Origin: Alcaligenes ammonioxydans
Lineage (GTDB): Bacteria > Pseudomonadota > Gammaproteobacteria > Burkholderiales > Burkholderiaceae_B
Length of the DNA stretch: 64,000 bases
Direction: 5' to 3'
Assembly: GCF_019343455.1 (NCBI RefSeq)
Contig: NZ_CP049362.1
Coordinates: 1,674,001 to 1,738,000, forward strand
The position numbers and the translations under genes are program-made. Position 1 is the first letter of the stretch, and the number at the start of each line of letters is the position of its first letter. Below, in pieces: positions 2,935 to 16,075 of the stretch. The notes beneath the pieces are model-generated. The model did not search any database and was not told the DNA's origin. It saw only the letters and a program-made list of their open reading frames with translations.

Positions 2935-4005
2935 TCAGGAGGGGTAAATCCACAGTTTGGAGGGCGGCAATTGCAGATGATGCACGCCACTGGGCAGTGG
3001 TTCAGGTCCGAAAGCTCGCAGTGTGCCGGCAGTCGGGTCGGCCATGCGGAAAACGTGCTCCCACTTGTCGCCCAGATACATGCTGGTGGATAGCTGCAGT
3101 GGCAGCGTATCGGGGCCGGGCTGCGCATTCAGTTGCACTTGTTCGACGCGAATCACGGCGGTGGCGTGCTGGCCGGCGCTCAGAGGAGCGGCGGCATGGC
3201 CCCATAACTCCCAACCAGGGCCGCTAAGCCGAGTTTGTTGATCGCGTTGCTCGGTAACCTTGCCTTGCAGATGATTGTTCGAGCCCATGAACTCGGCGGT
3301 GTACAGGGTCTTGGGATTGCTGTAGACCTCTTGCGGGGTACCTTGTTGCTCGATTTCGCCACCATTCAGCAACAGGATCCGGTCCGAAATCGCCATGGCC
3401 TCCGCCTGGTCATGGGTTACCATCAAAGCGGACAGGCCCATTTTCACAATCAGTTCGCGCAGGAACACGCGGGCCTCTTCACGCAGCTTGGCATCCAGGT
3501 TGGACAGTGGCTCATCCAGCAAGATGACCGGGGGGTTGTAAATCAGCGCACGGGCAATGGCCACACGCTGCTGTTGCCCTCCAGACAGTTGGCTGGGGTA
3601 GCGCTCGCCCAGGCCTTTCAACCCCAATTGATCCAAAATGGCGTCCACCCTTTGGCGGCTTTGCGCCTTGGAGGTTTTGCGCAGCGTGAGCGGATAAGCC
3701 ACATTGTCCTGCACGGTCATGTGTGGCCACAAGGCATAGGACTGGAAAACCAGGCCCAGATTGCGCGCCTCGGCGGGCAGGTCGATACGGTTTTGCGAGT
3801 CGTACAGCACGTTCTCATTGATGGCGATACGCCCTTGGGAGGGCTGTTCGAGCCCGGCAACCGCACGCAGCAAGGTGGTTTTGCCACTACCCGAGGCCCC
3901 CAGCAGGGAAACCACCTCACCTTTGTTCAGGCTCATGGACACGCCTTTCAGGACCGGGTTGCGGTCGTAGGCCAGATGAATGTTGTCTACAGTCAGCTCG
4001 GTCAT
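2935..4005 (-). CDS. ABC importer ATP-binding protein (Fe3+/organophosphate type, FbpC/AfuC-like)
   Basis: A 356-residue ATPase of an uptake system. It has Walker A (GASGSGKTT, residues 36-44), a Q-loop (FQSYALWP), signature [15 protein letters not shown], Walker B VILLDEPLSNLD and switch histidine in MVTHDQAEAM, then a C-terminal TOBE-like domain. Length and organisation fit the FbpC/PotA/UgpC branch. An earlier in-frame ATG would add 35 residues without homology. The chosen ATG overlaps the permease stop as ATGA, indicating translational coupling. The substrate is not shown by the ATPase; see the binding protein and kinase. Confidence 0.9.
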   Translation of the reverse strand: MTELTVDNIHLAYDRNPVLKGVSMSLNKGEVVSLLGASGSGKTTLLRAVAGLEQPSQGRIAINENVLYDSQNRIDLPAEARNLGLVFQSYALWPHMTVQDNVAYPLTLRKTSKAQSRQRVDAILDQLGLKGLGERYPSQLSGGQQQRVAIARALIYNPPVILLDEPLSNLDAKLREEARVFLRELIVKMGLSALMVTHDQAEAMAISDRILLLNGGEIEQQGTPQEVYSNPKTLYTAEFMGSNNHLQGKVTEQRDQQTRLSGPGWELWGHAAAPLSAGQHATAVIRVEQVQLNAQPGPDTLPLQLSTSMYLGDKWEHVFRMADPTAGTLRAFGPEPLPSGVHHLQLPPSKLWIYPS

Positions 4006-5768
4006 CGTAGTTTTACTCCGAAGCGCAATGCGATGGTCAGGCCAATGACCACCAGAACGATATTGATAAAAGACAGGGCAGCTACAATGTCGATGGCGCC
4101 GGTCGCCCATAGTGAAACCAGCATGGAGCCAATGGTTTCCGTGCCCGGTGTGAGCAGGTACACGCCGGTAGAGTATTCCCGCTCAAAAATCAGGAACATC
4201 AATAACCAGGACCCGATCAGGCCGAACTTTGCCAGTGGTAAGGTGATTTGACGTGTTACCTGACCGGGACGCGCTCCCGTGCTGCGGGCGGCTTCTTCCA
4301 GCTCCGGACCCACTTGTAAAAGGGTGGAGGAGATCAGACGCAAGCCGTAAGCCATCCAGACCACGCTGTAGGCCAGCCAGACGCTGAAGATGGTGCTGCG
4401 CAGGGCGCGCAGCGGACTGACGAGCGTGCCTTGCAACCATTCCGCCATGGGCAGGACCGACAAGTAGCCGTTTTCCAGGGACTGATCCAGCCACATGGGC
4501 ACGAACAGGAACATCCACAAAAAGGCCAGACCCGCCAGTAGACCGGGGACGGCACGGGGTACCAGAACGCTGTAGTCCAGAAAGCGGGTGATGCCGTCTG
4601 GCTTGCGGTGCATGGCCAGGCCAATGAAGGTGTAGCAGATGACGGCCAAGGCGCCGCCAAATACACCAATCGCCACTGAGTTCAGAATGGCGCGCAGCAG
4701 ATTGGCTTGCCCAAACACTTGCCGGAAGGCATCCAGGGAGAGCACGTCCATCAGCGAGACGCCAATCCCCCAGTTGGACACAAAGGCGCGTAAGACTACG
4801 CCCACCACCGGGGCAATGACGGTGAAGAACAACCACAGACCGACCAGTGTTGCAGCTGCCCAGCGCCAGCGGCCCAGCGGCAAGGCACGTGCCTGGGAGG
4901 CTTTGCCCTTGACGGTTACGAAGCGGTTGGCGGTGCGCATCAGACGGCGTTGCAGCATCACGAGCGGGATAGTCATGGCAATCAGGACGACTGCCACAGC
5001 CGCCATCAGGTGGTAGGACGGAATGCCGAGCTTGTTGGTGAGCTTGTATAGATAGGTGGCCAGTACCAGGTGGCCTTCAGGGTCGCCGAGCACCAGCACC
5101 AGACCAAATACTTCCAGCCCCAGAAAAAAGAGCAGAACGCAGGCGTACAGGATGGCGGGACGCACCATGGGCAGGCTGACCGAGCGCATGACCTGCCAGG
5201 GGCTGGCACCGGCGCTGCGGGCGGCTTCTTCCACATCCGAGCCCATGCTGCGCAAGGCCGAGGAAATGTACAGATAGGCGTGGGGAACGTGCGTCAGACC
5301 GGCAATGATGACAATGCTGGTGAAGGAGTAAATGCTCCAGGGGACAAAGCCGATCAGCTCCAGCGTCCAGGTGGAGAAGAAACCGACGGGTCCGGCGGCA
5401 ACAATATAGCCAAAGCCCAGCACCATGGGCGAGACGAAAATCGGGACCAGAATGAGCGGTTCAATCCAGGTACGGCCGGGTAAATCGGTACGTACCATCA
5501 GGAAGGCCAGGATGCCGCCCAAAGGAATCGAAATACCGGCCAGGCCAAAGGCCATGATGAAACCGCTCCCCAGTGCTTTGTAAAAGTCCGGGTCGTCGAA
5601 GATGAAACGGAAAGCATCCAGCCCCAGAGACTTGTCAGTCGCAAAAAAGGGGGCCGATAGCAGGCTTTGGATGATGATCAGGCTAAGCGGCACATAAATG
5701 GCCAATGCCGTGATCAGAACAACGACATGGCGTGGCCAGGCCTGCCACCGAAGGCGTAAGGCTTGCAT
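4002..5768 (-). CDS. ABC importer permease, fused double-domain (FbpB-like)
   Basis: A 588-residue inner-membrane protein with about 12 hydrophobic segments in two homologous halves. Each half carries an EAA loop contacting the ATPase: EEAARSAGASPWQV in the first and EEAARSTGARPGQV in the second. One polypeptide therefore supplies both transmembrane domains, as in FbpB/AfuB-type ferric iron and phosphorylated-compound importers. It is separated from the upstream binding-protein gene by a hairpin that may lower its expression relative to the binding protein. Confidence 0.9.
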   Translation of the reverse strand: MQALRLRWQAWPRHVVVLITALAIYVPLSLIIIQSLLSAPFFATDKSLGLDAFRFIFDDPDFYKALGSGFIMAFGLAGISIPLGGILAFLMVRTDLPGRTWIEPLILVPIFVSPMVLGFGYIVAAGPVGFFSTWTLELIGFVPWSIYSFTSIVIIAGLTHVPHAYLYISSALRSMGSDVEEAARSAGASPWQVMRSVSLPMVRPAILYACVLLFFLGLEVFGLVLVLGDPEGHLVLATYLYKLTNKLGIPSYHLMAAVAVVLIAMTIPLVMLQRRLMRTANRFVTVKGKASQARALPLGRWRWAAATLVGLWLFFTVIAPVVGVVLRAFVSNWGIGVSLMDVLSLDAFRQVFGQANLLRAILNSVAIGVFGGALAVICYTFIGLAMHRKPDGITRFLDYSVLVPRAVPGLLAGLAFLWMFLFVPMWLDQSLENGYLSVLPMAEWLQGTLVSPLRALRSTIFSVWLAYSVVWMAYGLRLISSTLLQVGPELEEAARSTGARPGQVTRQITLPLAKFGLIGSWLLMFLIFEREYSTGVYLLTPGTETIGSMLVSLWATGAIDIVAALSFINIVLVVIGLTIALRFGVKLR

Positions 5769-5793
5769 GATAAGGATTCCAGGCGGTAAAAGG

Positions 5794-5821
5794 CCGGGTG
5801 ACGGCCGAGGCCGTCACCCGG
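5794..5821 (-). terminator. intercistronic stem-loop between binding protein and permease
   Basis: Arms CCGGGTGACGGCC and GGCCGTCACCCGG form a very stable hairpin. On the minus strand it is followed by CCTTTT. In ABC operons such hairpins protect the binding-protein mRNA or partly terminate transcription; either is possible here. Confidence 0.6.
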
Positions 5822-5838
5822 TTCACAGACGAGGTGTC

Positions 5839-6924
5839 TTATTTATTGGCCGCAGCGCGCCATTGCTTGATGAAGTCCAGGCGTTCCTTTTGCTTCAGGA
5901 AGTCCAGCAGCGACGAATCCACCGGGATGGGGGTCAGTTCTACCCCTGCCAATTTCTTGGTCAGGCCATCCACATCGTTGTCGCCTTCCACGTCAGAGCG
6001 GATCGAGGCCAGCTCGGATTGGTTCGCCAGAACATCCTGTCCGTCCTTGGATAACATGTAGTCCAGAAAGACACGGGCGGCATGGGGGTGCTGGGCCTTG
6101 TTGCTGATGAACGCCACGCGTGACAGGACCAGGGTGTAGTCCGAGGGGTACACAATCCCGATGGCTTTATCCTTGGCGGCGCGGGTCTCCGCATATGAAC
6201 CCAGCAGGTTGTAGCCAATCAGGTTTTCACCCGAGCTGACGCGCTCCATCATGGTGCCCGTCGAGGACTGCAGTACCAGATTGGCTGAACCTACGCCTTT
6301 GATGAAATCCCAGTAGCTCTGGCCTTTCTTGCTGTCTTGAGCGGCCAGCATATAGCCTACTGCAGATTTTTCAATGTCGTAGGTAGTGACCTTGTTGCGA
6401 AAGCGGTCCTTGTCGCTTTCCACCAGCCTGGCCAGTTCTGCATGCGTCTTGGGTGCTTCTTCAGGCTTGATAAGACGGTTGTTGTAGATGAATACCGTCG
6501 GCTCGTAAGTGGTGCCAAACGCCTTGTTTTCCCATACGGCCCAACTGGGCAGGGCAGGGATTTCAGGGGAGTCGTAGCGGGCTGCGTAGTCGGTGGCCAG
6601 GCGCATAGCCGAGTCCATGGAGGAGCTCCACACAAGGTCGCCACTGTGGCTGCCCGAAGCCTGTTCGCTGATGTAGCGGTTGTACAGCTCGGTGCTGTTC
6701 ATGTCGTGGTATTCGACTTTGATCTTGGGGTGGGCGGCCTCAAACGCGGCAATGAGCGGTGCGGCGGCTTTGGTGTCCGTGGTCGAGTAGACAATAACCT
6801 TGCCTTCTTTGTCCGCTGCTTGAGTCTGGTCGTCCTGAGCCCAGGCCGCTTGTCCGGCCAGCAGGCTGGCACTGAGTGACAGGGCGAGCAGGCTCAGGCG
6901 CTTAGGGGGGGTAAATGCTGACAT
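5839..6924 (-). CDS. periplasmic substrate-binding protein of ABC importer (AfuA/PgtC-like)
   Basis: A 361-residue secreted binding protein with a signal peptide (about residues 1-29, ending AAWA). The mature part begins KVIVYSTTDTKAAAPL, followed by YHDMNSTELYNRY, GTTYEPTVFIYNN, TTYDIEKSAVGY, IGYNLLGSYAETR and YPSDYTLVLSR. This resembles type-2 binding proteins of the ferric/hexose-phosphate (AfuA, FbpA) and phosphoglycerate-sensing (PgtC) branch. The classical ferric-ligand tyrosine pair is not obvious, so an organic phosphate or similar anion is as likely as iron. AAGGAG precedes the start. It is clearly paralogous to the C-terminal domain of the neighbouring kinase. Confidence 0.85.
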   Translation of the reverse strand: MSAFTPPKRLSLLALSLSASLLAGQAAWAQDDQTQAADKEGKVIVYSTTDTKAAAPLIAAFEAAHPKIKVEYHDMNSTELYNRYISEQASGSHSGDLVWSSSMDSAMRLATDYAARYDSPEIPALPSWAVWENKAFGTTYEPTVFIYNNRLIKPEEAPKTHAELARLVESDKDRFRNKVTTYDIEKSAVGYMLAAQDSKKGQSYWDFIKGVGSANLVLQSSTGTMMERVSSGENLIGYNLLGSYAETRAAKDKAIGIVYPSDYTLVLSRVAFISNKAQHPHAARVFLDYMLSKDGQDVLANQSELASIRSDVEGDNDVDGLTKKLAGVELTPIPVDSSLLDFLKQKERLDFIKQWRAAANK

Positions 6925-7039: not shown

Positions 7040-9553
7040 CTAGGGTCTTGCCGGCGTGTCGGTGACCAGACGTCGCCAGTTCTGCAGAAAACGGTGGCGG
7101 CGGGTGGGGTCCAGGCCCACTAACAAAGAGGGATTGAGAATAAGCGGTTGAATAATTCCAATTGATTGATTTTCAATGGTTTTTGTGAACCAGCTGCCCG
7201 TTTCCACGGCGTTGAGCGAGCCTAATCCGGCTGGGCCGGCGAGGGTTTGTTGGCCTTGGGGAGAGAGCAGGTAATCAATGAAAGCAGCGGCTAGATCGGG
7301 GCGGCGAGCTTGTTTATGAATCAGGGCGCTGCGGGTAAACACTGACACATAATCGCTGGGTACGATGATGGCAATGTCCGAGCCTGCTTTTTGCCGAGCC
7401 AGGGCATACGAGCCTAGTACGTTGTAGGCGACATCCAGGGTGCCATTGTCCAGATCATCCAAAATGGCACCGGTATTGGCATACAGACGGGTGCCGACAC
7501 GGCCCAGGGCATTGGCCAAGCCCCAGAACGTGGAAGAGGTGCGTTCGTCGTACAGTGCAAACAGGTAGCCCACGCCACTGATCTGAATGTCATAGGTGCC
7601 CACCCGGCCCCTCAGACTGCCCTGGTTACGCTCCAGCAGCTTAAGCAGCGCTTCGCGAGAGGCCGGCAGCTCGTACGGTAAACGAGCCGGTGCGTAGGCG
7701 ATGACGGCCGGCTCCAGCGTGAAGCCAAACACCTCATTGCGCCAACGTGCCCAGCCGGGCATGGTCTGGGTCAGACTGGATGTGTGCGCACGAGCATAGC
7801 CGTCGTTCGCCAGTTTGACCTGCATGTCCGCGGCCGAGCTGATCAGCAGATCCGTTTCAGGCAGGCTGCCTTGAGTGGTGTGCCGATACAGCGCGGTGGA
7901 ATCCATCTCGTGATAAAGAATGCGTACGTGAGGCTGGATACGCTGAAAGTCCTGTACGAGCACTTCAAACAGTTCGGTGTCGGTAGGGCCAGCAATCACC
8001 AGCAAGGCCTGATCTTCCGGTCCAGGTGGACGGGGGGAGCGAGCCGGGTAGTCGTGACTGCGAATGCCCATATCGGGTTCCGCGGCGCTGGCGAGGGCGA
8101 AGGCTGGCTGGGGCTGGGCCAACATGCCCGTCATGATCAACGCTGCGATGAGCAGGGTCAGGGGGGGCGAGGGTCGGGGACTCTGGTAAAGGGTGGGGAT
8201 TTCGATGCGGACTGTCAGACCCTGCGGGGTATGGTCACGCAAGAGCAACGTGCCTTGATGCGCTTGTACCACGGTGCGCACGATAGACAGCCCCAGGCCC
8301 GAACCGGGCCGCCCCTGGCTGCTGGGACCACGCTGAAAACGCTCCAGCAAACGGGTTTTGTCATCGTCACTGATGCCTGGGCCCAGGTCGGACACATCAA
8401 ACACCACCCAACCGTTCGGGCGGGTGTAGATTCGCACGGAAACAGGCTCGTCGCTGTAGAGCATGGCGTTGTCGATCACATTGCGCAGCATCTCCCGCAA
8501 GGACACATGGTCGCCCAGGATTTGTGCTCGTCGAGCCGAGGGCGTGAGGTGAATGTACAGCCGGTGGGCCCGGTCGGGATCGACCCGGCCCTGGATTTCC
8601 TGAATCAACGGGGCCACATCTAAAGGCCGCATGGTGCTGCGGTCCAGGCGGTGGCTGACGGTGGCGTCCATCAGTAACTGGTTCAACAGATGGGTGGCAT
8701 GCGTAGTGTTGTTCAGAATCCGTCGCAGGCGTGGCCTTAGGGTGTCAGAGCCGGGCTCATCCATCGCGAGCTGGGTTTGCAGATGGACTGCCGCCAAGGG
8801 AGTGCGAATCTGATGGGCCGCATCGGCCACCAGATTGTTCAGAGTACCAACCGCTGTTTGCAGGCGCTGCATGAAGGCATTGAGGGTATCGACCAGACGG
8901 CGAATCTCTTTGGGTACCGGCGTGTCGATGGGCTGCAAATTGTCGTGGGAGCGTTCTCGCAGTGCTGTTTCCAATTCGGCCAAGGGGGCGAACGCACGCC
9001 GAATCCCCAGGCTGGTAATCATCAGGGCCAGCAACATCAGACCGGTCAGGGACAGGGTGCTGCGACCCAGCAACTCATCGGCCAGCGCTTGTCGGGTGCC
9101 CAGGGTTTCAGCAACGCGGATGGTGATCCAGCCACGGCCCAGTGAATGCTGGCCTGTCAGCAAGCGTCCGATCGTGGCGACACGCACGGCAGTGCCGTGA
9201 TAGGAAATGGTGTCGTAGCGCGGTTCGGAACTGGTGGCCGGCGGCAGGGTGTCTCCCAAGTCTGGATAGCCGGAAATCAGGCTATTGGCCGAGCGTACGC
9301 TGTAAAAAATATGTTCCTGTTCGGACAGCATGGCCATCGCCGAATAGGGCAGCTCCAGGGAAAGTTCACCCTCGTCAATTTGAATGGCATTGGCAATAGT
9401 CAGGGCGGCGGCGTTCAGGAGCCTGTCATAGGCGGAGTCGGCGGCACGCTGGGCATATTGTCGCGATGCCAGACCCAATGCCAGTAAGGCAGCGGCCAGC
9501 AAGCATACGGCCAGCGCCAGTACACGCTGCTGGATAGACAGGGTGCGGCGCAT
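7040..9553 (-). CDS. hybrid sensor histidine kinase with C-terminal periplasmic substrate-binding domain
   Basis: An 837-residue protein. Residues 10-30 form membrane segment 1, 31-164 a short periplasmic domain, 165-183 membrane segment 2, then a HAMP-like region. The phospho-acceptor is His247 (AAHQIRTP); the ATPase part has RNVIDNAMLYSD (357-368), DLGPGIS (389-395) and GSGLGLSIV (417-425). Unusually, residues 464-482 form a third hydrophobic segment ending AFALA, like a signal anchor, and 515-837 are a full binding-protein domain: YHEMDSTALYR, GTYDIQISGVGY, VAYNVLGSYALAR, VPSDYVSVFTR. This matches the neighbouring importer's binding protein block by block. The C-terminal domain would face the periplasm. 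The start overlaps the regulator stop as TGATG. The TctE-like kinase part is firm; sensing through the extra domain is inferred. Confidence 0.9.
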   Translation of the reverse strand: MRRTLSIQQRVLALAVCLLAAALLALGLASRQYAQRAADSAYDRLLNAAALTIANAIQIDEGELSLELPYSAMAMLSEQEHIFYSVRSANSLISGYPDLGDTLPPATSSEPRYDTISYHGTAVRVATIGRLLTGQHSLGRGWITIRVAETLGTRQALADELLGRSTLSLTGLMLLALMITSLGIRRAFAPLAELETALRERSHDNLQPIDTPVPKEIRRLVDTLNAFMQRLQTAVGTLNNLVADAAHQIRTPLAAVHLQTQLAMDEPGSDTLRPRLRRILNNTTHATHLLNQLLMDATVSHRLDRSTMRPLDVAPLIQEIQGRVDPDRAHRLYIHLTPSARRAQILGDHVSLREMLRNVIDNAMLYSDEPVSVRIYTRPNGWVVFDVSDLGPGISDDDKTRLLERFQRGPSSQGRPGSGLGLSIVRTVVQAHQGTLLLRDHTPQGLTVRIEIPTLYQSPRPSPPLTLLIAALIMTGMLAQPQPAFALASAAEPDMGIRSHDYPARSPRPPGPEDQALLVIAGPTDTELFEVLVQDFQRIQPHVRILYHEMDSTALYRHTTQGSLPETDLLISSAADMQVKLANDGYARAHTSSLTQTMPGWARWRNEVFGFTLEPAVIAYAPARLPYELPASREALLKLLERNQGSLRGRVGTYDIQISGVGYLFALYDERTSSTFWGLANALGRVGTRLYANTGAILDDLDNGTLDVAYNVLGSYALARQKAGSDIAIIVPSDYVSVFTRSALIHKQARRPDLAAAFIDYLLSPQGQQTLAGPAGLGSLNAVETGSWFTKTIENQSIGIIQPLILNPSLLVGLDPTRRHRFLQNWRRLVTDTPARP

Positions 9554-10227
9554 CAGCGGGCATCACCCAAGCTTGCCATATAACCGGTGCCCCGCACCGT
9601 GTCGATGCGAATGGCACTATCGCTAAGCTTGCGCCGCAGACGAGAGACATGCAGCTCCACGGCATTGGGGCTGGAGTCTTCATCGAAGTTGAACAGCTGC
9701 ATCATCAACCGTTCCTTGGTGACCACTTGTCCGGCACGACTCAGGAGCAACTCCAGCAAGCAGAATTCGCGCTGGCCAAATTCCACGGTCTGATCCCGGC
9801 TATTGATGCGTCGGGCGGCGATGTCAATGCTGACGTGTCCCAACTGCCAGATTTCCGCTTGGGTGGTGGCGGGCCGCCGCATCAGGGCACGCAGCCGTGC
9901 TTCCAGCTCGCGCAGATCGAAAGGTTTGACCAGATAATCGTCTGCTCCCAGGTCCAGCATGGACACACGATCTTCGATTTCTGAACGAGCCGTCATGACC
10001 AGCACGGGCAGGCTGGGTGTTTGCTGGCGCAGATGCCGCAAAATGCTGAAACCGTCCTGATCGGGCAGCATGATGTCCAAAAGCAGGACGTCCCAGTTAT
10101 CCATTTCCAGATAGCGTAGGGCCAGCTCGCCAGTGTTGACCCACTCCACGCTATGACCGCCCGCGCTGAGCCGGCTGGCGATGGCTTCTCCCAAATCCTC
10201 ATTGTCTTCGACCATGAGTAATCGCAT
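9553..10227 (-). CDS. OmpR-family response regulator (TctD/QseB-like)
   Basis: A 224-residue two-domain regulator. Receiver: acidic pair E7/D8, phospho-acceptor Asp51 in LLLDIMLPDQDG, Thr79 and Lys101 (YLVKPFD). C-terminal winged helix with ELHVSRLRRKL and RIDTVRGTGYM. An ATG 15 bp upstream exists, but GGAGG lies inside that extension at correct spacing for the start chosen here. It is co-transcribed with the kinase (1-bp overlap) and probably controls the importer genes downstream. Confidence 0.93.
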   Translation of the reverse strand: MRLLMVEDNEDLGEAIASRLSAGGHSVEWVNTGELALRYLEMDNWDVLLLDIMLPDQDGFSILRHLRQQTPSLPVLVMTARSEIEDRVSMLDLGADDYLVKPFDLRELEARLRALMRRPATTQAEIWQLGHVSIDIAARRINSRDQTVEFGQREFCLLELLLSRAGQVVTKERLMMQLFNFDEDSSPNAVELHVSRLRRKLSDSAIRIDTVRGTGYMASLGDAR

Positions 10228-10308: not shown

Positions 10309-11907
10309 CTAGTCCAGCCGAAAATGCGCGCCCAGACTGTGAGGGCGGGCCAGAGCCGCGTGGGCCAGCAACCAGGCGGTGTCCAGGTGCAGACTGCCAA
10401 TGCGATGATCGACCGTGTCGGGCAGGCGGCGACTTTGCTCTCGCCAGTCGCTCAGGGTGTGGATGGCGTGCGCCAGACCAGCTCTATTGCGAAGCAGACC
10501 GACATGCTCTTGCATCAGGTTTTGCAAGGCAGGCAGGGTGGGGAACGGGGGTGTGGGTGGGCGATGCAGTGTTCCCTTGTCTTTGCAGGTAATGTTGTTG
10601 TTGTTGTTGTTGTTGTTGTCGCGTGCGGGCGCAGGGGTGTGCGGTGATCCTGCGAAGGTCGGTGCCGTTTTTGATCTTTCGTCCTCGGGAGTCAGGGCGG
10701 AACAATGAGCGGCCCGGCTCCCTTCGATGGCCTGCGCTGCTGCCCGCCCCATGACCACGCACTCCAGCAGCGAGTTGCTGGCCAAGCGGTTCGCCCCGTG
10801 CAAACCGGTGCAGGCCACTTCCCCTATCGCATACAGACCCGGAACGCTCGTGCGACCGAACAGGTCGGTTTGAATCCCTCCACAGCTGTAATGCGCTGCC
10901 GGCGCGACAGGTATCCAGTCCTGGCGTAAATCCAGGCCGCGGCGTAAACCTTCTTCCAAGGCCCGTGGGAAATGCCGCTGCAACGTATCGGCACCCAGAT
11001 GGCGCACATCCAGCCAGACGTGTGCACGGTCCTCTTGTTTCATTTGTGCTGCAATGGCTCGCGACACAATATCGCGGGGGGCCAGTTCGGCGCGGGAATC
11101 ATAGTCCGGCATGAAGCGACGACCATGTGCATCCAGTAAATGGCCACCTTCACCCCGCAAGGCTTCGGTAAGCAGAAACGTCGGCCCTTGTGTGTACAGG
11201 CAGGTGGGATGGAACTGCACGAACTCCAGATCGCGGATTGCTGCGCCTATGCGCCAGGCCAAAGCCACGCCTTCACCTTTGGCGGTGTCGGGATTGGTGC
11301 TGTGGGCATACAGACTGCCGAGCCCGCCCGTGGCCAGCACCACATGGTCCGCTAGAATCGTTTCATGACGATGGGTTTGTTTGTCGTAAATATCAACCCC
11401 CGCTACACGACCGTGTTCATTCCGGCGCAAGGCCAATGCCAGGCAGTTTGTGCGTTGGAGCAGTTGTGTGGCTTGTTGTAGCTGGGGGTACAAGGCCTGC
11501 ATGATGGCGTACCCACTGGCATCCGCCGCGTGCACGATACGTCGCTGGCTGTGCCCCCCTTCGCGGGTCAGGTGCAGTTGCCCGTCTGGTGTTCTGTCCA
11601 AAGGCACCTGGCGCTCCAGCAGCCACTGCACCGCTTGTGGCGCGGCTTGTAAGATGTTGCGCACAGCATCCGCATCGGAATGGTGGGCACCTGCCTGCAG
11701 GGTGTCCTCGATATGCAGCTCCACACTGTCCTGGGCGCTGAGTACGGCAGCCAGCCCCCCCAGCGCCATCGTGCTTGCGCTACACGGAGCCGCGCCACTG
11801 CTCAGCAACGTTGCCTTCATGGAGGCAGGCAGAGACAGAGCCAGACTGGCGCCAGCCAGGCCCGCCCCAATAATCAATACATCCGTCTTTGTGCTAAGGC
11901 GCGGCAT
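10309..11907 (-). CDS. nadB: L-aspartate oxidase with polyasparagine insert
   Basis: FAD enzyme oxidising L-aspartate to iminoaspartate, the first step of de novo NAD synthesis; NadA uses the product. The N-terminus has the FAD motif IIGAGLAGASLAL, then GGLAAVLS, and the family motif NRLASNSLLECVVMGRAA before the C-terminal helical domain (LQNLMQEHVGLLRNRAGL). Between them lies an unusual low-complexity linker of about 60 residues that includes eight consecutive Asn (431-438), encoded by an (AAC)8 microsatellite. The gene is coupled to nadA by a TGATG overlap. Typical NadB has a short linker here, so the insert is odd but in frame. Confidence 0.93.
   Translation of the reverse strand: MPRLSTKTDVLIIGAGLAGASLALSLPASMKATLLSSGAAPCSASTMALGGLAAVLSAQDSVELHIEDTLQAGAHHSDADAVRNILQAAPQAVQWLLERQVPLDRTPDGQLHLTREGGHSQRRIVHAADASGYAIMQALYPQLQQATQLLQRTNCLALALRRNEHGRVAGVDIYDKQTHRHETILADHVVLATGGLGSLYAHSTNPDTAKGEGVALAWRIGAAIRDLEFVQFHPTCLYTQGPTFLLTEALRGEGGHLLDAHGRRFMPDYDSRAELAPRDIVSRAIAAQMKQEDRAHVWLDVRHLGADTLQRHFPRALEEGLRRGLDLRQDWIPVAPAAHYSCGGIQTDLFGRTSVPGLYAIGEVACTGLHGANRLASNSLLECVVMGRAAAQAIEGSRAAHCSALTPEDERSKTAPTFAGSPHTPAPARDNNNNNNNNITCKDKGTLHRPPTPPFPTLPALQNLMQEHVGLLRNRAGLAHAIHTLSDWREQSRRLPDTVDHRIGSLHLDTAWLLAHAALARPHSLGAHFRLD
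10594..10617. repeat. trinucleotide microsatellite (GTT)8 inside nadB
   Basis: Eight perfect GTT copies on the plus strand read as AAC (Asn) in nadB. Copy-number slippage would change the length of the Asn tract without shifting the frame. Confidence 0.95.
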
Positions 11908-13040
11908 CAGGCGGCCCCTACGTGCAGAAACTGCTGGCTGTGTTGGGCGAGATCAGCTCCTACACGCAGTGTTCTCTGATGAGCAGCTGCAAAGTCCATC
12001 ATCCTTTGCAGGGAGCGTCGTGCGCCTTGCTGTAATGCGGGCTCGATTTGTATACCCGGGCCCGGCTCGCTCAAGCGTTGTTGCAGCGCTTGCAAACTGT
12101 TCAGCGCCATCCAGGGGCAATAGGCGCAGCTTTTGCAGGTGGCGCTTTCGCCTGCTGTAGGGGCGGCCAAAAAGGTTTTGCCTGGGGCCTGTTGACGCAT
12201 GGCATGCAAAATGCCCTGATCGGTCGCCACGATAAAGGTGTCGGCAGGGTGGTTGACAGCGGCGCGCAGCAGTTGTGTGGTGGAACCAACCACATCGGCC
12301 AAGGCCACCACCGCAGCTGGCGATTCTGGATGGACCAGTACCTGAGCATGCGGATGCTCATTCATCAACGCTTTTAAGCCGTCGGCCTTGAACTCGTCGT
12401 GAACCAGACAGGAGCCTTGCCAGAGCAGCATGTCCGCTCCGGTCTGCTTCTGGATGTACGCACCTAAATGACGATCGGGCGCCCACACTATTTTTTTCCC
12501 TTGCGCATGCAGATGGCGCACGATGTCCAGTGCGATCGAGGACGTGACCACCCAGTCTGCCTGAGCTTTCACCGCCGCGCTGGTATTGGCATAGACAACC
12601 ACCTCCCGGTCCGGGTGAGCGGCGCAAAACTGTTTGAAGTCTTGCGGGGCGCAGCCCAGATCCAGTGAGCAGGTGGCTTGATCGTGGACGGCCAGGACCC
12701 GTTTTTCCGGACTCAGGATTTTGGCGGACTCTGCCATGAAACCCACACCGGCTACCAGGACCGTGCTGGCTTTGTGCTCTTGTCCAAAGCGAGCCATTTC
12801 CAAGGAGTCGCCCACGCAGCCCCCGGTCTCCAGCGCCAGATCCTGAATATCGGGATCGGTGTAGTAATGGGCCACCAGCACCGCATCCTGGGCCTTCAGC
12901 TCCGTGGCCAAGACTTGTTTCAAAGCCGCTTTATCGTTTTGTGACTTGATCGGGGATGGGACTTCATGCCAGCCAATCTGACGGTTTAAGGCATCCTGTG
13001 AATCGGGCTGACAGACATCAATAGGGAAACGCTGAGTCAT
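11907..13040 (-). CDS. nadA: quinolinate synthase
   Basis: A 377-residue [4Fe-4S] enzyme condensing iminoaspartate with dihydroxyacetone phosphate to quinolinate. Visible blocks are [75 protein letters not shown] and [13 protein letters not shown], which carry the Cys ligands and active-site residues of NadA. AAGGA precedes the start. It forms a nadA-nadB operon; nadC is absent from the window. Two palindromes immediately upstream are likely operators. Confidence 0.95.
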
Positions 13041-13051
13041 GAGTGTCCTTG

Positions 13052-13068
13052 ATGCTCAAATTGAGCAT
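13052..13068. promoter_or_regulatory. palindromic operator-like site 1 before nadA
   Basis: Perfect 17-bp palindrome ATGCTCAAATTGAGCAT, 12 bp upstream of the nadA start. It shares half-sites with a second copy at 13130. A NAD-biosynthesis repressor such as NadQ is the candidate ligand; this is inference. Confidence 0.6.
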
Positions 13069-13129
13069 AAATGATTTAAAAAAATGGCCGCGGTGAAACA
13101 TCGAGCGAAAAGGAAAATTGTTTTTTTTG

Positions 13130-13150
13130 TTATGCTTTTTTTGAGCATAA
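13130..13150. promoter_or_regulatory. palindromic operator-like site 2 before nadA
   Basis: TTATGCT and GAGCATAA half-sites around a T-run, 7-bp matching arms, centred 80 bp from site 1. Same half-site as site 1. Confidence 0.5.
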
Positions 13151-13195
13151 TTAAAAAATCAATGCTTCGCAAGCACAAGGACAGATTCAGTCAGA

Positions 13196-13231
13196 AAAAG
13201 GAGACCCCGCGTCATGACATTGAAGCGGGGC
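13196..13231 (-). terminator. terminator after tas
   Basis: On the minus strand CCCCGC and GCGGGG pair around a 14-base loop and are followed by TCTCCTTTTTC. It separates tas from the nadA promoter region. Confidence 0.55.
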
Positions 13232-13239
13232 CAAGTCCC

Positions 13240-14286
13240 TTACGGCGCCGGATTGGGCGTGTGGTGATGAATGGCGTTGATTTTGCTGATCAGTTCATCA
13301 TTGAGCTGAACATCCACGCTGGCAATGTTTTCGCGCAATTGCTCCAGGGTGGTTGCACCAATCAAGTTGCTACTGGTAAAGGCTTGCTGGTTTACCCATG
13401 CCAAAGCCAGCTGAGTCGGTGTCAGACCATATTCACGGGCTAGTTCGTTGTAGGCCAACGCGGCCTCACGAGCCCGCGGCGCGTCATAACGCGTGAATCG
13501 GTTGTACCGTGTCAAGCGACCCTTCTCGGGGCGTGCGCCGTGATCATATTTGCCGGTTAGCACACCCATCGCCAAAGGCGAATAGGCCAGAAGCCCAAGT
13601 CCTTCATAGCGACAAAATTCGGACAGGCCCTCTTCAAACACCCGGTTCAGCAGGTTGTAGGGATTCTGGATGGTGGCAATCAGAGGCAGGGACTGGGTGC
13701 GCGCCAATTCCAGAAAGCGGGAAACCCCCCAGGGCGTTTCATTGGAAACACCGATATGCCGCACCTTGCCTTGACGTACAAAGTCGTCCAGTACCGCCAG
13801 AGTTTCTTCAATAGGGACGGTGTCTTCCTCTTTCCAGGGGTAACTGCGCTGCCCAAACGTAACCGTGCTACGGTCTGGCCAGTGCAACTGGTACAGATCC
13901 AGGTAGTCGGTTTGCAGTCTGCGCAGACTGTCATGCAGGGCTTGTTCCAGATTTTTGCGATCCAGGCTTGTGCTGCCATTACGGATGTGTCCGGGACGCT
14001 TGGGGTCGCGCTGCGGACCGGCAATTTTGCTGGCCAACACAATATCCTTGCGACGGCCCGTTTTCGCCAGCCAGGTACCAATATATTGCTCGGTCAAACC
14101 CTGTGTGGCTGCCATAGGAGGGACAGGGTACATTTCGGCGGTATCCACCAGATTTACCCCCAGCTCCAAGGCAAGGTCCAGTTGAGCGTGCGCCTCGGCC
14201 TCGCTGTTTTGTTCCCCGTACGTCATGGTGCCCAAACCAATCAGGCTGACGTCCAGATCTGTATTGCCCAGCTTGCGGTATTCCAT
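13240..14286 (-). CDS. tas: NADP(H)-dependent aldo-keto reductase, Tas family
   Basis: A 348-residue TIM-barrel reductase, almost the length of E. coli Tas (346). It has GLGTMTYGEQNSEAEAH near residue 18, VDTAEMYPVPP (catalytic Asp and Tyr) near 47-56, the catalytic Lys in ASKIAGP, and the His in YQLHWPD; the C-terminal IGATTLEQLRENI is the cofactor-binding part. The physiological substrate is unknown. GGGAG lies nine bases before the start. It is upstream of nadA on the same strand but separated by a terminator. Confidence 0.9.
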   Translation of the reverse strand: MEYRKLGNTDLDVSLIGLGTMTYGEQNSEAEAHAQLDLALELGVNLVDTAEMYPVPPMAATQGLTEQYIGTWLAKTGRRKDIVLASKIAGPQRDPKRPGHIRNGSTSLDRKNLEQALHDSLRRLQTDYLDLYQLHWPDRSTVTFGQRSYPWKEEDTVPIEETLAVLDDFVRQGKVRHIGVSNETPWGVSRFLELARTQSLPLIATIQNPYNLLNRVFEEGLSEFCRYEGLGLLAYSPLAMGVLTGKYDHGARPEKGRLTRYNRFTRYDAPRAREAALAYNELAREYGLTPTQLALAWVNQQAFTSSNLIGATTLEQLRENIASVDVQLNDELISKINAIHHHTPNPAP

Positions 14287-15466: not shown

Positions 15467-16075
15467 CTATTTTGGCGCTTTCTCCAACTGCGCGTCCAGG
15501 TAATCCGACCACCATTGCATCAGGTCATGGCGCTCGGCCATGTACTGAGCATGGTTGTAGGCACGGCGCACCTTGTTGCGATCACGGTGTGCCAGCTGAC
15601 GCTCAATCACCTCTGAGCGAAAACCGCTTTGCTCGTTCATGATGGTGGAAGCCAAGCCACGAAAGCCATGGCCCGTCTGCAGGCCGCCAAATCCCATAAT
15701 CTTTAAAGCCCGGTTCATCGTCTCGCTGCTGATAGGCGTAGAGCGAGGATTGTGCACACCCGGAAAGAGAAACGCATGCCGGCCGGATAGGCTGTACAGC
15801 GAATCAAGAATTTGTAGGCTTTGGCGGGACAGGGGCACCAGGTGATCCGCGGCGCTTTGTTTTTGAATCAGCCGGCCTTTCATGCGCTCGGCGGGGATGG
15901 TCCATAAGGCGTTGGCCATATCGAATTCTTCCCAGCGCGCCCATTGCCGCTCGCTCGTGGGTGGGGTGGGGCTGTAATTAAATGAGGGAGCAGCGGGTGG
16001 GCTTCGCAATATAGGCGCTGTTACGCTCAGCCACAGCCCGTGTGCGCATGGACTGTGCACTGCAAGCGCTGTCAT
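15467..16075 (-). pseudogene. decayed tyrosine recombinase (P4-type integrase), C-terminal part
   Basis: Residues about 40-202 match the catalytic domain of tRNA-targeting integrases: TSERQWARWEEFD, IPAERMKGR, HLVPLSRQSLQIL, LFPG, HGFRGLAST with the H-x-x-R box, RQLAHRD and a YMAERHDLMQWWSDYLD tail. The first 40 residues show no similarity, the arm-binding and core domains are missing, and the catalytic Arg expected just before TSE is replaced by Pro. It ends about 160 bp from tRNA-Val, a usual target of such elements. It is best read as a remnant of an integrative element that has otherwise gone. Confidence 0.8.

Follow-up and report, generated by a model that had tools for sequence, protein, structure and literature searches.

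The question raised by the locus considered here is what a cell makes of a sensor kinase gene that runs, in one reading frame, past its catalytic core, through a further hydrophobic segment (segment 3) and into a periplasmic binding protein. The earlier note on this DNA took the product for a single chain, in which binding of the ligand outside would be relayed back to the kinase core through a third membrane helix. The present analysis agrees with this note on the composition of the gene and leads to another reading of its product: the gene probably encodes a two-part precursor, from which a kinase and a free binding protein would be released. The window means here the whole stretch of 64,000 nucleotides that was analysed, and positions of the features are collected in Table 1.

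The frame of the fused gene comprises 837 codons with zero internal stops, and in the 3.77-Mb one-contig genome around the window the same frame is open over 840 codons, also with no stops. Together with the presence of Pfam domains typical for both parts this bears out the description of the gene as a kinase fused to a binding protein. The periplasmic sensor domain 2CSK_N (PF08521) is recognised with E 1.6e-32 and 112.9 bits against a cut-off of 23.2, and His247, as well as the residues of the N, G1 and G2 boxes, is invariant in 34 aligned fusions. Among the kinase parts named in the earlier note the sensor, the phosphoacceptor region with His247 and the ATPase core are therefore present, while HAMP with 23.9 bits stays slightly below its cut-off of 25. 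The C-terminal part gives a match to SBP_bac_11 at residues 517-771 (E 3e-14), and SBP_bac_8, SBP_bac_6 and SBP_bac_1 likewise pass their cut-offs; the binding-protein domain is complete. The AlphaFold model of the full chain (pLDDT 70.5, pTM 0.49), where residues 458-494 are non-helical and score below 50, is too poor to reveal any docking.

Table 1. Location of the fused gene, its predicted parts and the neighbouring genes in the window
Feature	Position	Strand	Basis
Fused gene, TctE-type histidine kinase + binding protein, 837 aa	7040..9553	-	ORF translation, Pfam, genome check
TM1, residues 11-30, uncleaved N-in/C-out anchor	9464..9523	-	20-residue uncharged run; signal peptidase-like motifs after TM1 fewer than in shuffles
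2CSK_N periplasmic sensor domain (residues 20-161), where the binding protein is proposed to dock	9071..9496	-	Pfam
TM2 + HAMP, about residues 164-232	8858..9064	-	Pfam HAMP 184-232; helix 152-187 in the predicted structure
HisKA, residues 238-297; His247 at 8813-8815	8663..8842	-	Pfam and alignment of fusions
HATPase_c, residues 347-453	8195..8515	-	Pfam
Predicted internal signal peptide, residues 455-486: basic flank, core 465-475, Pro481, A484-F485-A486	8096..8191	-	Sequence features
A-F-A motif with the predicted signal peptidase I site behind Ala486 (8096/8095)	8096..8104	-	Column conservation, parsimony steps
Predicted mature binding protein, residues 487-837, metal-citrate-binding (MctA) type	7043..8095	-	Fold and sequence match
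OmpR-type response regulator (TctD-like)	9553..10227	-	TGA stop shares one base with the kinase ATG
Separate binding protein of the importer, paralogue of the fused domain	5839..6924	-	Pairwise alignment
ABC importer permease, one chain with two BPD_transp_1 stretches	4002..5768	-	Pfam
ABC importer ATPase	2935..4005	-	Start taken as an internal Met of the longer frame 2935-4110

Existing annotations call some of the fused proteins TctE or sensor histidine kinase, and one public record (P0054) bears the name "putative bifunctional protein: two-component system sensor protein and solute-binding protein"; the fusion itself is, therefore, not new. Of the 151 genomes of the window's family covered by a whole-genome search, 28 have the complete fusion as a single ORF, and a further copy (L041) is cut by the contig end. 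In L038 the kinase and binding-protein parts occupy two overlapping frames (4605-5996 and 5903-6811, plus strand), the second of which stops near query residue 724; this is a decayed or mis-sequenced copy. When 399 genomes of the order were searched with the binding domain and 10 places of the resulting list were inspected (G179 with its 583-codon frame was left out), confirmed fused frames were found in the window's own family only. Long frames in L047-L049, which had been candidates for the fusion in another family of the order, proved to be separate frames for a kinase and a binding protein. Named genomes were scanned with the alignment of fusions as a query and the best 80 of 563 relatives were kept, so that this set is biased towards fusions and gives no estimate of their frequency. 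In all 80 of these best relatives the fusion is in one frame, with L128 ending early; 33 come from Betaproteobacteria (Achromobacter, Bordetella, Alcaligenes and their kin) and 46 are alphaproteobacterial by name (Devosia, Aureimonas, Labrys, Paracoccus, Yoonia, Mesorhizobium, Azospirillum and others). In L128 (7755-10082, plus strand) of Mesorhizobium sediminum the fused frame stops near query residue 721. One of the 80 records (L119) is titled Mycobacterium sp. KBS0706, and its copy groups with alphaproteobacterial fusions; the name of this record may be wrong. Since the frame is open across so many genomes, a sequencing error or a stop at the join, considered in the earlier note as a danger for its reading, can be ruled out.

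A homologue of the response regulator accompanies the kinase in 79 of the 80 related loci. The binding protein, permease and ATPase of the importer are all encoded downstream of the fused gene. The fusion is adjoined by an ABC importer in the 33 betaproteobacterial loci, and in 33 of 33 this importer comes with a separate binding protein, while in the examined flanks of the other 47 loci a second binding protein of the same type with a matching permease was detected in L127 only. Alphaproteobacterial fusions are often adjoined by tricarboxylate transporters, and in many Alphaproteobacteria this is TctCBA. Several particulars were registered in passing. L127 (7869-14559, plus strand), which belongs to an Alsobacter MAG, has the fusion followed by an ABC importer seen elsewhere with betaproteobacterial copies, and this arrangement suggests transfer or ancestral gene order. 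In L084 of Allopusillimonas ginsengisoli the importer permease is split over two overlapping frames (11756-12520 and 12487-13527, plus strand). On the minus strand of the window there is a D-amino acid dehydrogenase gene (1260-2621; NF009074, 702.6 bits) downstream of the importer, a phage-integrase family protein (15467-16075; PF00589) about 5 kb from the sensor operon, and an FAD-binding oxidoreductase with a fumarate-reductase C-terminal domain, whose gene overlaps the NadA gene by one base; this pair (10309-13040) is probably NadB-NadA, the name NadB being inferred.

The fused state has a two-gene counterpart. Nine loci in the same family (L028-L036) and three in another family of the order (L047-L049) encode a 2CSK_N kinase and a sister binding protein by adjacent, mostly overlapping genes, each having its own start, and the binding proteins of these split systems carry an ordinary-looking signal peptide. 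2CSK_N was found in 3 of 3 split-system kinases scanned, two of them from the family and one from the other family. In L033, L032 and L036 the open frame of the binding protein extends well into the kinase gene ahead of it (521-536 codons), and the true protein is shorter. In the kinase tree (70 rows) fused and split kinases are set together against background kinases with support 100, the split ones forming one group (support 99) and the fused ones another (support 89); one change between the two states suffices in this tree. The binding-protein tree (71 rows) sets the sensor type, with 49 fused and 12 split rows, apart from importers and background by a branch of support 100. Five fusions of Azospirillaceae fall there outside the other fusions, and a single fusion group is not rejected (AU p 0.233). 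As both trees set the sensor pair apart, its two members have travelled together. The sequence blocks that the earlier note quoted as common to the fused domain and the importer's binding protein are indeed present, and the two proteins are 33% identical over 330 columns (E 9e-56 in a single comparison). They are paralogous, as had been claimed, in a loose sense only: the support of the sensor-type branch means that the fused domain did not arise by local duplication of the importer protein next to it, and such an origin was rejected on this ground.

The join was analysed in 107 rows, one of an initial 108 having been removed; 12 of them are duplicates due to overlap of unnamed with named genomes, which leaves 95 distinct fusions. 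Signal peptidase I sites of Sec signal peptides obey the -3,-1 rule, and segment 3 resembles such a signal peptide, internal and cleavable, with A-F-A at its end. Its 15 residues ahead of the core are net positive in 83 of the 95 distinct fusions; the solved relatives of the C-terminal domain are periplasmic binding proteins, and both observations support the periplasmic location assumed for this domain earlier. The column of Ala486, taken from a MAFFT alignment, which tends to align alanines in an Ala-rich stretch, contains Ala in 91 of 95, and in the other four the motif is shifted by one place; in an overlapping set (best 120 of 567 proteins) the column has Ala in 113 of 120 and lacks it in 7. 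On the kinase-part tree of all 107 rows, duplicates included, this column required 4 parsimony steps versus 22-51 in the other 32 well-filled columns of the region 455-501, so that among 33 linker columns that of Ala486 changes most slowly. Ala or Val occupies column 484 in 83 of 95 and Pro481 is kept in 69 of 95, while column 485 is variable. The pattern [AVSTGL]xA, represented by AFA in the window gene, is present in 94 of 95; at -3 only L101 (PQA) is without an acceptable residue, and five more fusions have Leu or Gly. The strict motif follows the core of segment 3 in 89 of 95 fusions versus 61.0+-4.2 in shuffled tails, and it follows TM1 in 32 of 95 versus 62.1+-4.4 in shuffles. A self-trained weight matrix for signal peptidase, whose training sites were wrongly chosen, failed to distinguish segment 3 from shuffled sequence, with 4 of 49 cases above the 95% shuffle level (TM1 0 of 49). 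Also against a signal peptide, the median uncharged run of 17 residues (49 representatives) would allow segment 3 to cross the membrane. In the 107-row set the end of HATPase is separated from the hydrophobic core by a median of 15 and a minimum of 4 residues, and the stretch from the cut site to the first strand of the binding domain is long and variable (13-81 residues). Judging by the motif and the other signal-peptide features, signal peptidase I presumably cuts after Ala486. Since segment 3 combines the build of a signal peptide with the conserved Ala at -1, kinase and binding protein are probably two chains in their mature form, and the kinase's own N-terminal 2CSK_N is the most likely entry point of the signal. 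The third hydrophobic segment described in the earlier note does exist, with its core at 465-475, but its role as a permanent helix for covalent relay is not upheld.

As to the ligand, the fused domain has the same fold as the metal-citrate-binding protein MctA (PDB 7f6e and mutants) and is 34% identical to it over 316 residues. Five of the six mutated positions of the MctA pocket are kept (T199 as T or S), and the most conserved MctA position that is not kept is S26, replaced by Pro, Thr, Ala or Val in the fused domains. We infer from this likeness that the ligand may be citrate-like, perhaps metal-citrate, with the difference that MctA is a stand-alone protein of an ABC importer and the domain considered here, with its putative citrate ligand, is fused to a kinase.

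Based on this data one can assume, with a probability of roughly 0.68, that the gene encodes a precursor of a kinase and a citrate-type co-sensor, which are cut apart by signal peptidase I, the co-sensor docking on 2CSK_N. The kinase would insert via TM1 and TM2, and segment 3 (about 455-486), acting as an internal Sec signal peptide, would thread the C-terminal binding protein into the periplasm. Cleavage after Ala486 would then yield, in a 1:1 ratio, a TctE-type kinase and a binding protein that is free in the periplasm. The latter would bind a citrate-like (perhaps metal-citrate) ligand and dock, when loaded, on 2CSK_N, from where the signal would reach His247 through TM2 and HAMP; the response regulator, whose gene lies just upstream, would turn on the adjoining importer, i.e. 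the ABC system here and TctCBA in many Alphaproteobacteria. Both the docking on 2CSK_N and the importer as a target are presumed. Split relatives must signal without a covalent third helix, and the simplest account is, therefore, that the fused form gives the same two proteins after cleavage. It is also fairly probable that these genes represent a polyprotein family, where a kinase and its private co-receptor are made in one chain and the cut fixes their ratio and birthplace; the stub attached to the ATPase domain may restrain the kinase, making the cut possibly a maturation step. One may speculate that the short stretch behind the HATPase core would keep the ATPase domain near the membrane until the stub is removed.

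The chain may also stay whole, with segment 3 as a permanent anchor and the tethered domain signalling to the kinase directly, either via the third helix or by bending back onto the sensor domain. The single open frame in each of the 28 family fusions, the ability of segment 3 to span the membrane and the long tether-like stretch behind the site would all suit such a receptor. A permanent anchor, however, should lose an accessible signal peptidase site, yet Ala486 is the slowest-changing position of the linker and the motif exceeds its frequency in shuffles, while the reverse is seen behind TM1, a true anchor with this orientation. Since split relatives need no tether either, we regard the uncut chain as unlikely.

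Still less probable is that the precursor is cut and the freed protein feeds the importer, sensing nothing for the kinase. The protein shares fold and pocket with transport binding proteins and an ABC importer is adjacent in the 33 betaproteobacterial loci, but this importer never lacks a binding protein of its own there, a second binding protein with a matching permease accompanies just one of the other 47 fusions in the flanks examined, and both trees separate the sensor pair. Additional synthesis of the binding protein from an internal translation start is very improbable: a start codon with an SD-like site within 25 codons before the core occurs in 13 of the 107 rows (12 duplicates included) and is absent from 94, and codons 441-464 of the window gene contain no ATG, GTG or TTG. 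That the fusion is an artefact of annotation or sequencing is hardly credible; broken copies such as L038 and L128 do exist, but no stop interrupts the frame in the one-contig genome or in 28 of the 151 family genomes. The cleaved precursor of a kinase and its co-sensor remains the preferred reading.

FbcH of Bradyrhizobium japonicum offers a precedent for a single frame that yields two proteins by separation at an internal signal peptide; its products are cytochromes b and c1 and not a signalling pair. Among systems where a binding protein assists a kinase, BctE of Bordetella pertussis is a TctE-type kinase, while HptS of Staphylococcus aureus belongs to another kinase family. In BctE/BctC the citrate-loaded periplasmic binding protein interacts with the kinase and is needed for its full signalling, and, as in our loci, two-component genes lie beside a transporter (PMC5812351). 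BctE and BctC are products of separate genes, BctC being a TctC-family protein that also serves transport (PMC5812351), unlike the binding protein discussed here, which belongs to the MctA/SBP_bac type, serves the kinase alone and shares its reading frame. BctE/BctC is a nearer precedent than the PgtB/PgtC pair invoked earlier. In the second system the external binding protein HptA, complexed with HptS, transmits the signal; these are separate proteins with glucose-6-phosphate as a ligand, in contrast to the one-frame gene (PMC8534201). BvgS and EvgS likewise combine periplasmic domains of the binding-protein type and a kinase in one chain, but their domains precede the kinase core and stay attached (PMC8534201), whereas here the domain is C-terminal (515-837) and placed behind a cleavage motif. 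The split systems L028-L036 and L047-L049 have the same kinase type and a sister binding protein, and differ in having two frames instead of one.

In the literature searched no paper on a fusion of a kinase and a binding protein was found, and within this scope a conserved signal peptidase site inside a sensor kinase gene looks undescribed. Binding proteins that activate sensor kinases are usually encoded apart from them. If the proposed reading is true, Alpha- and Betaproteobacteria would make both partners as one precursor and signal peptidase I would undo the fusion, so that a catalogue of domain architectures which lists these proteins as bifunctional fused receptors would give a wrong picture of the cell's contents. 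The sister two-gene systems, which differ mainly in the join, would then offer a ready test of the docking.
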